NCBI GenBank assembly: GCA_947498025.1
Contig: CANMJR010000030.1
Span: 1-34,015, forward strand
DNA: 34,015 nt
Source of the DNA: Helicobacteraceae bacterium
GTDB lineage: Bacteria; Campylobacterota; Campylobacteria; Campylobacterales; Sulfurimonadaceae
Reading direction: 5' to 3'
Translations under genes and position numbers: made by a program
The notes under the pieces: generated by a model
The model's database searches: none
Told to the model about the DNA's origin: nothing
Seen by the model: only the letters and a program-made list of their open reading frames with translations
Shown here: positions 21,459 through 26,989 of the stretch, piece after piece
Layout of the letters: every line of letters starts with the position of its first letter
Position numbering within the stretch: the first letter of the stretch is position 1

Positions 21459-22874
21459 ATAAAAAAACTATTTTTATTATTAATAATTGTTCATAATTTA
21501 ATTTATGCAAAGTCAATTTCTCTAAATGAAGCAGTTAGTATTGCTTTAAAAAATAATCCGAATTTAATAGTTTCATCATATATACCAAAATTATATAATA
21601 CTGATATATTAAAAGCAGGTAGTATGTTTGACGCAAAATTTAGCTCTAGTTATTTGCATACTGATTCTAAAGCTGCTATTGAACTTCAATCTAAAAAAGA
21701 CGCATTTAATCTCTCTCTTTCAAAACAGACTGTTCTTGGTTCTACTATAGGATTAAATTATTCACAAAATATTAATGATAATAATCCACCTCTAACTATA
21801 ATGTCATCAAGTGCCAAATTTGAAGCATCAACAGGTGTCTCTTTTTCACAAAATTTACTTAAAGATTTTGGTACAAAGGTAAACACTACAAAAATATTTG
21901 TTGCTTCTAAAATATATGATGGTATGAAATATAATTTTTTACAAGATGTACTAAATACGATATATAATGTTCAAGTTGCCTATTGGAATTTTTATGAGGC
22001 ACAGAAAAATTATGAATTAGAAACCTATGGTCTCACACTTCTTGAAGAGTTATTGAAGCAAAAAGAGAAAATGGTAGAACTAGGAGGATTTCCAAAAGCT
22101 TTAATACAAGAAATCGTTGCTTCAAGAGCCGATGTGTTAACTAGGATGGCAATTACAGAAAAAAATTTAAAAATAAATGAAATAAATTTCGAGTCTGTAT
22201 TGGGATCTTTAGACGATAAGTTTGAAGCAAGTGATTTACCATTTGAATATTCTATAAATAATTCAGAAGATGAAAGTGCCATACTTGAGAAACATCCTGA
22301 AATTTTGGCTAATAAAACTCAGGCAGACGCTTCAAGAAGGTTGTTGTCTTATTATGACAATCAACTATTACCCTCCCTGAATGTAGGTATAGATTATTCA
22401 TTGAATAATCCTAGTCCTGAGAAATCCAGTTTAAACCCATATACGAAAGATCATGATTCTTTTAGTACCGGACTCAAATTTTCAATGCCCATCGACAATT
22501 CATCTGCTATTGCAGATTTAGCAAGAACAAGACTTAGCTTAATGTCTGCAACAGCCAAAGAGGACAAAATTAAATATGATATAAAGATTAAAGTTAAAAA
22601 AGCCTTGTTAGAAATTGATACAATCAAGAATATAGTCAATTTTGCTAGAAATAGCGTGGAAGCTCAAGAAAAAATAATGCTAAATGAAGATAAAAAACTT
22701 GAGTTAGGCTTAACTACTATGAAAAATTATCTTGATAATATGAACTCACTTATAATTCGTAAAAAGCAGCTTCTCTCTTTTGAGTGTGACATGATGCGTT
22801 CTTTTGCAAGTTACTTTGAAGCCATAGGCCGTTCTCCTGAATTTTTAAATATCAATTTAAGTGAATACGAATGA
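21459..22874 (+). CDS. TolC-family outer-membrane efflux protein, apparent ATA start
   Basis: Outer-membrane channel of a type I secretion system. The in-frame region before the ATG at 21624 is open back to a stop at 21447-21449 and encodes a perfect signal peptide (KKLFLLLIIVHNLIYAKS) followed by SLNEAVSIALKNNPNL, the conserved TolC N-terminal helix. Starting at 21624 would remove both. The only possible start codons are ATA (21459) or ATT (21453); AGGA at 21448-21451 lies seven bases before the ATA. The full product is 471 residues, normal for the family, with two internally similar coiled-coil halves. Its stop overlaps the ABC exporter's start (ATGA), so the two are coupled. The ATA call is inference; a sequencing error or mutated ATG is the main alternative. 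Confidence 0.75.
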   Translation: MKKLFLLLIIVHNLIYAKSISLNEAVSIALKNNPNLIVSSYIPKLYNTDILKAGSMFDAKFSSSYLHTDSKAAIELQSKKDAFNLSLSKQTVLGSTIGLNYSQNINDNNPPLTIMSSSAKFEASTGVSFSQNLLKDFGTKVNTTKIFVASKIYDGMKYNFLQDVLNTIYNVQVAYWNFYEAQKNYELETYGLTLLEELLKQKEKMVELGGFPKALIQEIVASRADVLTRMAITEKNLKINEINFESVLGSLDDKFEASDLPFEYSINNSEDESAILEKHPEILANKTQADASRRLLSYYDNQLLPSLNVGIDYSLNNPSPEKSSLNPYTKDHDSFSTGLKFSMPIDNSSAIADLARTRLSLMSATAKEDKIKYDIKIKVKKALLEIDTIKNIVNFARNSVEAQEKIMLNEDKKLELGLTTMKNYLDNMNSLIIRKKQLLSFECDMMRSFASYFEAIGRSPEFLNINLSEYE

Positions 22875-25800
22875 AAGTGCCAGAATTACTAAAGTTACTA
22901 AAAAATAGTTTAATATTTGGATTTTTGGATGATGATTCAATTGAAGCATTAGGAGAAAAATTCATTTTACAGTTTTTTTCACATGGCGAATGTATTGTAG
23001 AATCTAATAGTGTTGATAATGATTTTTTTATTATCTTTAGCGGTACAGCAAAAGTAATTGTTCAAGAAAATGCAAAGATGAAAAATATTGCTACACTAAA
23101 AAGAGGTGATTTTTTTGGTGAGCACTCTATTTTAAATACTGAAAGTTTAACAGACCATCCTTCTGTTTTTGCTATAGGAGATCTTGTTGTAGCAAAGTTA
23201 AAAAGAGATGATTTTCTGGATTTAATGAATGATAGAAAAGAGTTCGCTAATTTTGTAGAGACTTTTTCTGCAAACCAAGCTTTACAATCATTCTTAAAAA
23301 ACTTTGGCTCTTTTGGCGCTTTAAGTTCAAAAGAGAGCGCAAAATGGCTGTCAGAACTTAAATATGAAAATATAAAAAATGATGGTGACATTGTTTTTTA
23401 TGAGGGCGACATAGGTGATAAATTTTATATTGTAGCTTCCGGTGGTATAGAAATAATTAAAAACATTAATGGTAATGATGTCCATTTAGTGACTCTTGGA
23501 GAGGGTAAATTCTTTGGGGAGATGGCACTTATGTCTGATGAGCCACGAGCTGCGACTGCAAAATGCGTTAATAAAACACAGCTTATTTCTATAGATAAAG
23601 ATAAATTTACGAACTTGGTAAATTCAAATCCTGCCATTGCAAATAAAATTAAAAATATCATTGACATGTATAGAGCTTCAGGTGTGCCAAAAGATGCTTT
23701 TCTTCAGTCAAAAGTAGTAATAAACAATAAGCTTACAGGTGATTTTTATCAGGATGATCAATTAGGTTCTAAATTTACTTTAGAAAAAGCAGCTACTTTT
23801 TTAGAATCAATGAAATCATGTACATCATTTTTATCTGATTTATTAAATATAAAAATAGATAAAATAAAACTTTCTGAAAATATATCTAAATATACTTTTG
23901 ATACATTGGAAGATTTGTTTGTTGATCTTTCTTCTGCAAAAGCTATATCTAAAAAATTAAAATATAAAGATTTAAAAAAATTAAAAACTCCGTACATCAC
24001 CAAATTAAAGAACTCCATAGTTGTAGTGTACTCAAAAGATAAAAAATCATTTAAAATAGCTGATCCTCTTAATGGATTTATAACACTTAATGAAAAAGAG
24101 TTCAAAAATGCATATGATGGCGATGTGATTTTTGTTAATGGAACTTCAAAAGAAGCTGATGGTATCCAGAAAATAACACTGCATTCATTCTTAAAAATAT
24201 TGCGTCCATATAAAAAAATACTTTTAGAGATATTTGGAACAAGTATATTTATTTCATTACTTGCCCTCTTGCCTCCAATCTTTATTAGCATTTTGATTGA
24301 TGATGTGTTGGTTCAAAGAAATGAAAATATGTTGATTGTGCTAATAGTTGCTCTTATCGTAGTTGCTGTTTTTACAGGTGTTTTAAATGCTCTTAGAAGT
24401 TATTTGCAATTTTTCATATCTGGCAAATTACAAGTAGAACTTCTGGGTAAATTTTTCAGTCACTTAGTTACATTGCCAGTTAGTTTTTTTATGAAAAAAC
24501 CAGTATCTGATATTATAGGTGAATTTGAATCTGGCAGTGCGGTTGAAAAACATATGTCTAAAATAATTTCAACAATACTTATAGACGGATCAACGGCAAT
24601 GGCATTTTTAATAGCCCTTTTTCTTTCAAATTCAAAATTATTTTTGGTATTTATTGGATTTGTATCTATCATCGGCGGTGCAATTTTTGCTTTCACCTAT
24701 TATGTTAGACAATATTTGCCAAAAACACTCTCAGAAGATTCCGATACAGATCGGCATACAACTGAGTCTATAAATAATATTGCAACAATAAAAGTTTTTT
24801 GTGCAGAAAATTTAACTAAAAAAAGATGGGAAACTATGTTTATTAACAATCTCCAAAATGTCAATAAATATATTATTCTTGGCTCCATCTCCAACTCTGC
24901 AGTAATAGCGATGAGAACTTTGACAACTGCCGTAATATTGGCATATGCGTCAATACTTGCTTTATCAAATGAAATAAGCATAGGTCAAGCTCTTGCATTC
25001 AATATGATAAGCATGCTTGCACTTGTTCCTTTGGGAAATATTGTACAGATATACCATGATATATCATCAGCGGATTATTATGCATCTGGACTTAATAAAA
25101 TTTACGGGGTAGAATCTGAAGGTGGAACAGATGACAAAAACAAACCTGATTTAAATTTAACAAGAACAGATGTTGAATTTAGAAACATCACATTTGCTTA
25201 CGAAAATAGCAAAACACCGATACTGAATAATTTTTCACTAAATGTAAATCATGGAGAATATGTTGCTATTATCGGTAAAATAGGAAGCGGTAAGTCAACA
25301 GTAATTAATATGCTGACAAGAGTTGCAAATCCTAATAGCGGTCATATACTTTTGGGCGGAACTGATATATCACAAGTGAATTTAACTTCTTTAAGATCGA
25401 ATGTAGGTGTTATTTTTCAAGAATTAAATCTATTTGCAGGAACAGTTAAAAATAATATCAGTTTTGGTATGCCTAATGCATCAATAGCAGAAATTGTAGA
25501 AGCAGCCACACTTGCCGGCGCACATGATTTCATCATTAATTTGCCTGGTGGCTATGATACCGTTATTGGTGAAAAAGGGATGGGACTCTCTGGCGGTCAA
25601 AAAAGACTTATTGCAATTTCAAGAGCTCTCGTATCAAATCCACCACTTATAATCATGGATGAACCTACAAACGATTTGGATATTGAAACAGAGCAAATTT
25701 TTAAAGATAATTTAAAGACAATAGGTTTTGGCAGAACAATGTTTATAATCACACACAGAGCATCGCTTATTAGAGATGCGGATAAAATCGTTGTGCTTGA

Positions 25801-25897
25801 TAATGGTGAAGTTGTAGAAGTTGGCACTCATTCAAAACTGATTGCTGACAAGGGATACTATTTTTATCTTTGTGCCAAACAGATAGCACTTTCATAA
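22871..25897 (+). CDS. type I secretion ABC exporter with two cyclic-nucleotide-binding domains and C39-like domain
   Basis: Inner-membrane exporter of 1008 residues. Domains in order: cNMP-binding 1 (about 15-135, core GDFFGEHSIL at 79-88), cNMP-binding 2 (about 150-265, core FFGEMALMSDEPRAATA at 214-230 with the phosphate-binding arginine R226), a degenerate peptidase C39-like domain (about 335-425, DPLNG but the expected catalytic histidine replaced near S382), six predicted membrane spans (450-740), and an ATPase with Walker A GKIGSGKST (802-810), signature LSGGQ (906-910), Walker B LIIMDEP (926-932) and H962. The C39-like domain probably binds cargo without cutting it. cNMP-binding exporters are known, mostly annotated as bacteriocin/lantibiotic exporters. 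Upstream start overlaps the tolC-like stop; the HlyD-like gene follows after nine bases. Ligand and cargo are unknown. Confidence 0.88.
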   Translation: MKVPELLKLLKNSLIFGFLDDDSIEALGEKFILQFFSHGECIVESNSVDNDFFIIFSGTAKVIVQENAKMKNIATLKRGDFFGEHSILNTESLTDHPSVFAIGDLVVAKLKRDDFLDLMNDRKEFANFVETFSANQALQSFLKNFGSFGALSSKESAKWLSELKYENIKNDGDIVFYEGDIGDKFYIVASGGIEIIKNINGNDVHLVTLGEGKFFGEMALMSDEPRAATAKCVNKTQLISIDKDKFTNLVNSNPAIANKIKNIIDMYRASGVPKDAFLQSKVVINNKLTGDFYQDDQLGSKFTLEKAATFLESMKSCTSFLSDLLNIKIDKIKLSENISKYTFDTLEDLFVDLSSAKAISKKLKYKDLKKLKTPYITKLKNSIVVVYSKDKKSFKIADPLNGFITLNEKEFKNAYDGDVIFVNGTSKEADGIQKITLHSFLKILRPYKKILLEIFGTSIFISLLALLPPIFISILIDDVLVQRNENMLIVLIVALIVVAVFTGVLNALRSYLQFFISGKLQVELLGKFFSHLVTLPVSFFMKKPVSDIIGEFESGSAVEKHMSKIISTILIDGSTAMAFLIALFLSNSKLFLVFIGFVSIIGGAIFAFTYYVRQYLPKTLSEDSDTDRHTTESINNIATIKVFCAENLTKKRWETMFINNLQNVNKYIILGSISNSAVIAMRTLTTAVILAYASILALSNEISIGQALAFNMISMLALVPLGNIVQIYHDISSADYYASGLNKIYGVESEGGTDDKNKPDLNLTRTDVEFRNITFAYENSKTPILNNFSLNVNHGEYVAIIGKIGSGKSTVINMLTRVANPNSGHILLGGTDISQVNLTSLRSNVGVIFQELNLFAGTVKNNISFGMPNASIAEIVEAATLAGAHDFIINLPGGYDTVIGEKGMGLSGGQKRLIAISRALVSNPPLIIMDEPTNDLDIETEQIFKDNLKTIGFGRTMFIITHRASLIRDADKIVVLDNGEVVEVGTHSKLIADKGYYFYLCAKQIALS

Positions 25898-25906
25898 GGA
25901 ATATAA

Positions 25907-26989
25907 ATGGGCGCAACTAACACGTTTTTACTCGAAAGACCTCATCTATTGGCAAGAGCTATATTTTACTCTTTTTCATTTTTAATAACTTTTATTATTG
26001 TATTGTCTTGGTTTGCTACTATAAATATTACTGCTGCCGGAAAAGGTATTATAACAACTGAAAATGGTGTAAAAGAGATATATATAAATTCAAATGGTGT
26101 AATTTTAGAAATGTTCATTAAAAAAGGGCAAAAAGTAAAAAAAGGGCAAGTACTAGCCACCATAAGCAGTGATGAAATAGAAATAGCAAATAGCATAGTC
26201 AAAAATACGGAGTTATCTTTTAAGATAGCCAAACAAGAACTAACTAGCATTGAGAATGTTAGTAAAATTGAAGAATTTGCAGCTGAACAAAGTTTATTAA
26301 GAGCAAAAGAACAAGAACAACTTTCTGAAAATCTCTATAAAGAGGGATTTACTACAAAAATAGCTTATTTAAAAGCAAAAGATTCTTTGGCAAATGCAGG
26401 TGCAAATCTTGAAAAGACAAAAAATGAAAATTTAAAAAATATGAATATGGCAAAAGCTAAACTAATAACCATAACAATGGAAAATCAAAATCAAAAACGC
26501 AAAGTTATTTTATCAAATGCAAACAGAGGTAATATAGATGCCTCGAGGGATGGGTTAGATGCCATATATTCGCCATGTGATGGAACAGTTTCTTTAGCAC
26601 AAACATGGGCTTCTAACATGAGAATAGATAGCAAATCACCGGCATTTGTGATAGTACCAGAGGATGAAGAGTTAATTGCAAAAATAGAGATTCCAACATC
26701 AAAAATGACTAGCGTCAATAAGAAACAAGATGTAAAATTAAAAATTGATGCTTACCCATTTAAACAGTTTGGTGTATGGCAAGGAGAACTAAACTACATA
26801 AGTGCAAGCAGCAAAATCAATCTAGCTGGAGATACTGTGTATGAAGCTATTGTAATATTGGATAAGAAAGATATGGCAGAGAAAACAAAATCTCTTCTTG
26901 TTGGACAAACTTTAAATGCTGAAATTGTTGTGGAGCGAAAAAGGATATTAATATATCTATTGGATTATCTACGCGGTGTTAGCAAATAG
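25907..26989 (+). CDS. HlyD-family membrane-fusion (adaptor) protein
   Basis: Periplasmic adaptor linking the ABC exporter to the TolC-like channel. The 360-residue product has a cytoplasmic N-terminus, one membrane span (about residues 16-36), a lipoyl-type half motif (NSNGVILEMFIKKGQKVKKG near 57-76 and SPCDGTVSL near 222), a long coiled-coil hairpin (about 80-175) and a beta-barrel C-terminal part ending with a short hydrophobic tail. An AAGGAATATAA ribosome binding site precedes the ATG. It is shorter than classical HlyD (about 480 residues), nearer to EmrA-type and bacteriocin adaptors. It is the last gene of the operon. Confidence 0.88.
   Translation: MGATNTFLLERPHLLARAIFYSFSFLITFIIVLSWFATINITAAGKGIITTENGVKEIYINSNGVILEMFIKKGQKVKKGQVLATISSDEIEIANSIVKNTELSFKIAKQELTSIENVSKIEEFAAEQSLLRAKEQEQLSENLYKEGFTTKIAYLKAKDSLANAGANLEKTKNENLKNMNMAKAKLITITMENQNQKRKVILSNANRGNIDASRDGLDAIYSPCDGTVSLAQTWASNMRIDSKSPAFVIVPEDEELIAKIEIPTSKMTSVNKKQDVKLKIDAYPFKQFGVWQGELNYISASSKINLAGDTVYEAIVILDKKDMAEKTKSLLVGQTLNAEIVVERKRILIYLLDYLRGVSK

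Follow-up and report, generated by a model that had tools for sequence, protein, structure and literature searches.

We found, in the 34,015-nucleotide stretch of DNA analysed here (the window), a gene for an ABC exporter with two N-terminal cyclic-nucleotide-binding domains (CNB1 and CNB2), lying between genes for a TolC-like outer-membrane factor and a HlyD-type membrane-fusion protein. The reading that we favour, with about an even chance of being right, is that of a HlyB-like type 1 exporter whose CNB2 binds cAMP and gates the export of cargo. The exporter frame ran through 1008 codons without an internal stop, and Pfam placed in it, in this order, CNB1, CNB2, a degenerate C39 peptidase-like domain, the ABC membrane domain and the ATPase domain, with cNMP_binding matching in two stretches at an E-value of 7.3e-36 for the whole protein. 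The original prediction of an exporter fused to two tandem CNBs was borne out, since both domains scored above the PF00027 cut-off of 27.5 bits when scanned singly; the C39-like domain, which it had omitted, was found here by Pfam. Reading of the ATPase domain showed Walker A (GKIGSGKST), LSGGQ and Walker B (IIMDE(P)) motifs, and H962 lies outside this domain, on its C-terminal side.

Table 1. Features of the exporter operon, with positions in the window and the evidence for each
Feature	Position	Strand	Evidence
TolC-like outer-membrane factor gene	21459..22874	+	PF02321, E 9.3e-30 for 21624-22871
ABC exporter gene, two N-terminal CNBs, 1008 aa	22871..25897	+	ORF, Pfam, ortholog
CNB1, aa 39-129, degenerate phosphate-binding cassette	22985..23257	+	PF00027, 53.2 bits; no cassette Arg
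CNB1 cassette region F82..S98 (FGEHSILNTESLTDHPS)	23114..23164	+	Sequence, alignment
CNB2, aa 172-260, intact	23384..23650	+	PF00027, 79 bits; model
CNB2 phosphate-binding cassette F215-T229 (FGEMALMSDEPRAAT), E217 and R226	23513..23557	+	Sequence, alignment
C39-like domain, aa 301-436	23771..24178	+	PF03412, 2.5e-7; 50-exporter alignment
ABC transmembrane domain, aa 453-718	24227..25024	+	PF00664, 9e-35 for the protein
ABC ATPase domain, aa 785-934	25223..25672	+	PF00005, 2.9e-31
HlyD-type membrane-fusion protein gene, 360 aa	25907..26989	+	PF13437, 2e-12

That this ORF with its two N-terminal CNBs is real and not due to chance was confirmed by an ortholog (L002) in a second genome of the same genus (G009), which is 60-61% identical over residues 6-1008 and has the same architecture, operon order and split between an intact and a degenerate CNB, and by the conservation of CNB2, which between these two sequences equals that of the membrane domain whereas that of CNB1 is lower. 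The two orthologs were 71.5% identical in the ATPase domain, 66.4% in CNB2, 66.0% in the membrane domain, 46.9% in CNB1 and 37.5% in the C39-like domain, and the difference between CNB2 and CNB1 gave a Fisher p of 0.0014, for two sequences only. Amino-acid identity alone was used because synonymous sites are near saturation between the orthologs.

The stop of the TolC-like gene overlaps the ATG of the exporter gene by 4 nt, and the TolC–ABC–HlyD series supplies the three components that form a type 1 secretion system, as seen with Pfam in the window and from the sequence in G009. The HlyD-type protein scored 118.5 bits with TIGR01843, under the cut-off of 208.65. In the TolC-like frame a signal peptide is read from the ATA at 21459, six bases after AGGAA; the first canonical start is the ATG at 21624, with no ATG, GTG or TTG before it, and starting there removes the signal peptide. 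The ortholog of this gene in G009 starts with ATG, and the window gene either starts with ATA or has a start codon that was damaged. The operon is flanked by CTP synthase and RecJ genes on one side and by genes for a KefC-like antiporter and a flagellin on the other; in G009 the operon is complete with its gene order unchanged, and the flanks are different. The GC content of the operon (21459-26989) is 30.6% vs 36.4% for the rest of the window, where 71 segments of 5.5 kb all had at least 34.6% and one single gene reached 29.9%; the contrast is smaller in G009 (31.9% vs 34.3%). The operon was present in 2 of 135 genomes of the genus, the source genome of the window included, thus in one of the 134 others (G009). 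Among 397 sampled genomes of the phylum, a sample without G009 unlike the genus set, the CNB-CNB-C39 part matched in the source genome alone. The low GC content, the rarity and the different flanks in G009 point to a horizontal acquisition of the operon. None of 876 matching phage records covered 80% of the exporter query.

Both CNBs keep the FGE core exactly as predicted (F82-G83-E84 and F215-G216-E217). In CNB2 it is followed by P225-R226-A227-A228-T229, which makes a complete phosphate-binding cassette (FGEMAL…PRAAT), and with its PF00027 match and the cassette Glu and Arg, the domain is predicted to bind a ligand. CNB1 has TDHPS at the later positions and no cassette arginine in either ortholog, and so lacks the residue taken here as required for cNMP binding. 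The full cassette with R226 in CNB2, and TDHPS in place of the arginine in CNB1, had also been predicted and were found in both sequence and alignment. In the excerpts of PMC12422582, Glu and Arg are the conserved cyclic-nucleotide contacts, the residue after Arg is Thr in PKG and Ala in PfPKA-R, and two domains described there (named CNB1 and, after refolding, CNB4) bound neither nucleotide despite having the key residues, so that an intact cassette is no guarantee of binding. The residue after R226 in CNB2 of the window exporter is Ala, as in PfPKA-R.

We then placed these cassettes in an alignment of 50 exporter rows (the window protein, its G009 ortholog, L033-L035, L180-L186, 30 loci from a cyanobacterial scan and 8 of 30 from a scan of a gammaproteobacterial phylum; one protein is present twice, as L181 and L197). 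A CNB profile, biased toward CNB2-like domains by being seeded with CNB2 and its matches, found 55 domains in 43 of the rows, 7 rows being without a match. Twelve exporters had two CNBs, with starts 128-137 residues apart in all twelve. Glu, Arg and an Ala or Ser two after the Arg were found together in only 2 of the 55 domains, namely the CNB2 domains of the two orthologs. An arginine also stands in the cassette column of L222, L204 and L215, which were excluded from this count because their alignment is uncertain around gaps or because different residues follow. The columns appear to be the right ones, since 80 of 86 control CNB rows carry Glu, Arg and a small residue there; these rows were picked by similarity to CNB2 and two peptide patterns, and thus test the columns and give no base rate. 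The source genome has eight PF00027 matches, seven of them above the cut-off, and by eye the cassette arginine occurs only in CNB2 of the exporter and in a 184-aa frame on contig 49. G009 encodes an 818-aa protein (L143 4417-6870, reverse strand), with membrane and ferredoxin-like parts by eye and a C-terminal CNB with an intact cassette (FGEIALLGDTKRTAS), which from this sequence is possibly another cAMP effector.

The exporter N-terminus (residues 1-290) was modelled from 30 alignment rows, with a mean pLDDT of 74.4 and ten-residue means of 91-98 over residues 161-260. The CNB1 cassette region (residues 84-110) stayed below 50, which may reflect a lack of data, as CNB1 is well covered in no more than 7 of the 29 partner rows. 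The top Foldseek matches were tandem PKA regulatory subunits at an rmsd near 15 Å, so the domains match and their arrangement does not; by their PDB titles some of these are cAMP-independent regulatory subunits of trypanosome PKA, and one title names guanosine. Structural realignment, whose rows cover chiefly residues 124-278 and barely CNB1, aligned CNB2 with cAMP-bound SthK at Z 19.5 and 2.4 Å over 139 residues. SthK with cGMP (Z 19.4) tied with it, as did PKA, HCN-type and other domains, and cIMP- and cUMP-bound domains were also among the neighbours. The confident model thus agrees with the predicted cyclic-nucleotide domain, its best matches being of this kind with cAMP- and cGMP-bound forms tied, although a shared fold does not establish function.

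In the C39-like domain, Peptidase_C39 matched at residues 356-425 with 31 bits for a cut-off of 22. Both orthologs have a serine (Ser313 in the window protein) for the catalytic cysteine (Cys of DCGAAC) and have lost the histidine; the window protein retains Asp-Pro 398-399. The peptidase cysteine is present in 42 of the 50 exporter rows and is also missing in L182, L183, L185, L186, L222 and L227. An active peptide-processing exporter was ruled out by the replaced Cys and the missing His. The exporter has the make-up used to recognise the HlyB type, a Cys-less C39-like domain fused to the membrane and ATPase domains, and by analogy this points to a HlyB-type, unprocessed cargo. According to excerpts of PMC8277102, Cys-less C39-like domains are linked to large RTX cargo that is left unprocessed, and active C39 domains to substrates up to about 10 kDa, and by this rule the cargo of the exporter would be large.

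No cargo gene was recognised by eye beside the operon among window ORFs of at least 100 aa, nor beside the G009 operon among the ORFs of at least 90 aa of L146, and the gaps flanking the operon held only ORFs of 26-84 aa with no evident kinship. The RTX repeat (PF00353) matched one ORF of the source genome, on contig 16, which is not the contig of the exporter, and none in G009, and TIGR03661 matched in neither genome. Upstream of this RTX-repeat ORF lies one of 1754 aa (L174 8116-15338, reverse strand), and from their sequences the two look like fragments of a single large secreted adhesin, or like its neighbours. A further type 1 secretion operon of the source genome, LapB-like and without CNBs, lies on contig 13 (L175 2-10282); its ABC gene was identified by Pfam and the TolC- and HlyD-like neighbours by eye.

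ABC exporters bearing CNBs are a known kind, with N-terminal-CNB relatives in cyanobacteria and Pseudomonadota. A five-sequence profile matched in at least 69 of 146 genomes of the phylum of Cylindrospermum (E<=1e-140, many frames of 900-1060 aa) and in at least 98 of 398 genomes of the phylum of a gammaproteobacterium, where at least eight places start at profile position 12 or earlier in frames of 1036-1098 aa; the counts are lower bounds because the scans scored 5 and 2 candidates per genome. Two more CNB-bearing exporters were found in records of Burkholderia and Caballeronia. Of 107 loci in a genome-contig scan, the best 80 were CNB proteins of other kinds, and among these, in ORFs of at least 250 aa, a CNB was joined to an ABC domain only in NBD-CNB fusions. 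These carry a C-terminal CNB after the ABC ATPase domain (L040, L048, L058, L077, L081, L095, L104, L109 and L111), another way of joining the two, in records titled Planctomycetes, Chloroflexi and Anaerolineae. In a quick tree of the membrane-ATPase core, without bootstrap, the two orthologs stood on an isolated long branch. A clade uniting them with 24 other rows, nearly all CNB-bearing, was neither rejected nor shown (p-AU 0.487); L229 was put into this clade and the cyanobacterial CNB-bearing rows L182, L183, L185 and L186, which stand apart from the other CNB-bearing rows, were left out, three of these four lying elsewhere than the clade in the AU-test tree as well. What is new in the window exporter is the combination of an intact cassette, a dead peptidase, a full type 1 operon and a genome with a class III cyclase.

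In the open-access literature searched, the only characterised CNB-bearing exporter found was HetC of Nostoc PCC 7120, compared here through excerpts of its published description (PMC10986499) and absent as an identified row from the alignment. HetC has an N-terminal CNB followed by C39, ABC membrane and ATPase domains, as in the window protein, but one annotated CNB instead of two with one complete cassette, an active cysteine peptidase instead of lost peptidase residues, and no membrane-fusion gene nearby in place of TolC- and HlyD-type genes. Among the ligands tried on its N-terminus, cAMP being one of them, ppGpp was bound best (Kd 59 uM); HetC showed no interaction with c-di-GMP, and removal of the CNB region abolished its function. 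PMC8707875 does no more than name a 'cyclic nucleotide-regulated ABC bacteriocin/antibiotic exporter protein' in a table, and a term search of the NHLP paper PMC2887384 found no mention of cyclic nucleotides. The two-CNB exporters of Burkholderiaceae and other Pseudomonadota (L033, L034, L220-L227) have the same domain order as the window exporter, to which L033 and L034 are 27% and 26% identical; none of them has Glu, Arg and Ala or Ser in either CNB, 8 of 10 keep the peptidase cysteine, and PpiC-like, FHA and sigma-54 regulator genes are among those lying near them, as judged by eye. HlyB (PDB 7sgr, 8dck), in which excerpts of PMC8277102 give Tyr for the catalytic cysteine, shares the C39-like domain without this cysteine and the HlyD and TolC partners. 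Over residues 386-1001 the window exporter matched the C39-like, membrane and ATPase domains of HlyB with 348.7 bits, and it scored 456.6 with the HlyB model TIGR01846 (NCBIfam), below the cut-off of 725.55; HlyB differs in having no CNBs, and the window operon in having no recognised cargo gene beside it. SthK, PKA-R and HCN share the fold of CNB2, and PKA-R also the cassette residues, but their domains sit on channels or kinases and CNB2 on a secretion ABC exporter.

A ligand for CNB2 could be supplied within the genome. The class III cyclase model PF00211 matched in 35 of 60 related genomes, in 34 above the cut-off. The source genome has one such cyclase (114.5 bits), on a contig other than that of the exporter, with the order zinc ribbon-cyclase-AAA_16-TPR. 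G009 has three, all with CHASE2, one of them between FecR and GAF-HD-PDEase_II proteins. By eye all four keep the two metal aspartates and the active-site Lys, Asn and Arg, with Thr at the adenine-Asp position; these are the roles that we take the residues to have, and we take the cyclases to belong to class IIIb on this basis. Class IIIb cyclases include bicarbonate-stimulated members, and a class III signature by itself does not tell a cAMP-forming enzyme from a cGMP-forming one. The frame of the source-genome cyclase (L139 5286-1942, reverse strand) has no canonical start before the zinc ribbon, its first ATG being codon 121, and GAGGAG and ATC codons stand where the start would be expected; either the start is an unusual one or there is an error upstream. 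One CHASE2 cyclase gene of G009 is followed on the same strand by a gene for a 721-aa protein with cadherin-like repeats by eye (L141 15-4384, reverse strand).

The scarcity of cyclases in Campylobacterota noted in the original prediction stands for the phylum, as excerpts of PMC9239204 report a cyclase in 21% of the species, all with CHASE2, and no c-di-AMP system in the phylum, but it does not extend to the source genome, whose cyclase is of another type. A lack of cyclase was thus ruled out by one with catalytic residues intact by eye, and since both genomes encode class III cyclases the hint that the enzyme might be missing is no obstacle here. Of the two kinds of cyclase proposed for a search, class III was present in both genomes and the CD-NTase type in neither, SMODS (PF18144) matching in 0 of 2 genomes and in 3 of 14 control genomes in the same search. 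A RelA/SpoT protein was found in both genomes.

We propose that the exporter, with its TolC- and HlyD-type partners, would sense a cyclic nucleotide in the cytoplasm. CNB2 would bind it, most likely as cAMP from the class III cyclase of the genome; binding may move the C-terminal helices of CNB2 and, through the linker, reposition the C39-like domain, on whose peptidase-dead fold the unprocessed cargo would dock, so that export might be switched on or off after cargo synthesis. CNB1 would no longer bind cAMP and would act as a structural partner, CNB1 and the peptidase-like domain both presumably being structural or docking modules. Gating by cAMP is favoured by the conserved Glu and Arg of CNB2 with a PKA-like Ala after the Arg, by a conservation equal to that of the membrane domain and seen neither in CNB1 nor in the C39-like domain, by the restriction of the full cassette to the CNB2 of this exporter family, by the match of the model to cAMP-bound SthK, and by class III cyclases without SMODS matches in both genomes. 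Cargo docking as in HlyB is favoured by the replaced Cys and lost His, such domains pairing with unprocessed cargo in the excerpts of PMC8277102, and gating itself by the loss of HetC function without its CNB region reported in those of PMC10986499. Against cAMP weigh the lack of a cassette in most CNB-bearing relatives, the ppGpp preference of the HetC N-terminus together with RelA/SpoT in both genomes, the tied cGMP-bound structures, a cyclase on another contig, a single ortholog, the intact-cassette domains that bound neither nucleotide in the excerpts of PMC12422582, and the cargo search that recognised none beside the operon.

It is unlikely, in our view, that CNB2 binds cGMP, another cyclic mononucleotide or, as HetC does, ppGpp, which would still leave the exporter ligand-gated. 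The HetC affinity and the RelA/SpoT proteins speak for ppGpp, but the cyanobacterial CNB rows (HetC itself being outside the alignment) lack the cassette that CNB2 has; cyclase signatures that leave cGMP open and the cGMP-, cIMP- and cUMP-bound neighbours speak for the others, but Ala rather than Thr after R226 is PKA-like by the excerpts of PMC12422582. We also hold it improbable that both CNBs are ligand-free assembly or docking modules, with the CNB2 cassette kept for the fold or by descent from a cNMP-binding ancestor: most CNB-bearing exporters do keep the domain without the arginine, and CNB1 is clearly degenerate, yet the two orthologs, with CNB2 domains 66% identical, both have this cassette whole, whereas their CNB1 and C39-like domains have drifted. 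The trypanosome PKA-R titles, guanosine included, and the retained G83-E84 would suit a two-input sensor in which CNB1 also binds something such as a nucleoside, but the 15 Å rmsd, the low pLDDT of its cassette, even though few partners cover it, and its faster divergence between the orthologs make this very improbable. Returning to cAMP gating, a tentative and rather doubtful extension is that cAMP acts on the exporter allosterically and that, the sole cyclase found being class IIIb-like, secretion follows inorganic carbon via cAMP.

The usual view of type 1 secretion is that expression and cargo control it. If the proposed reading is true, a complete cassette on an exporter would mean direct second-messenger control of secretion, and with the best-preserved cassette of the examined set, the ligand question of CNB-bearing exporters becomes testable.
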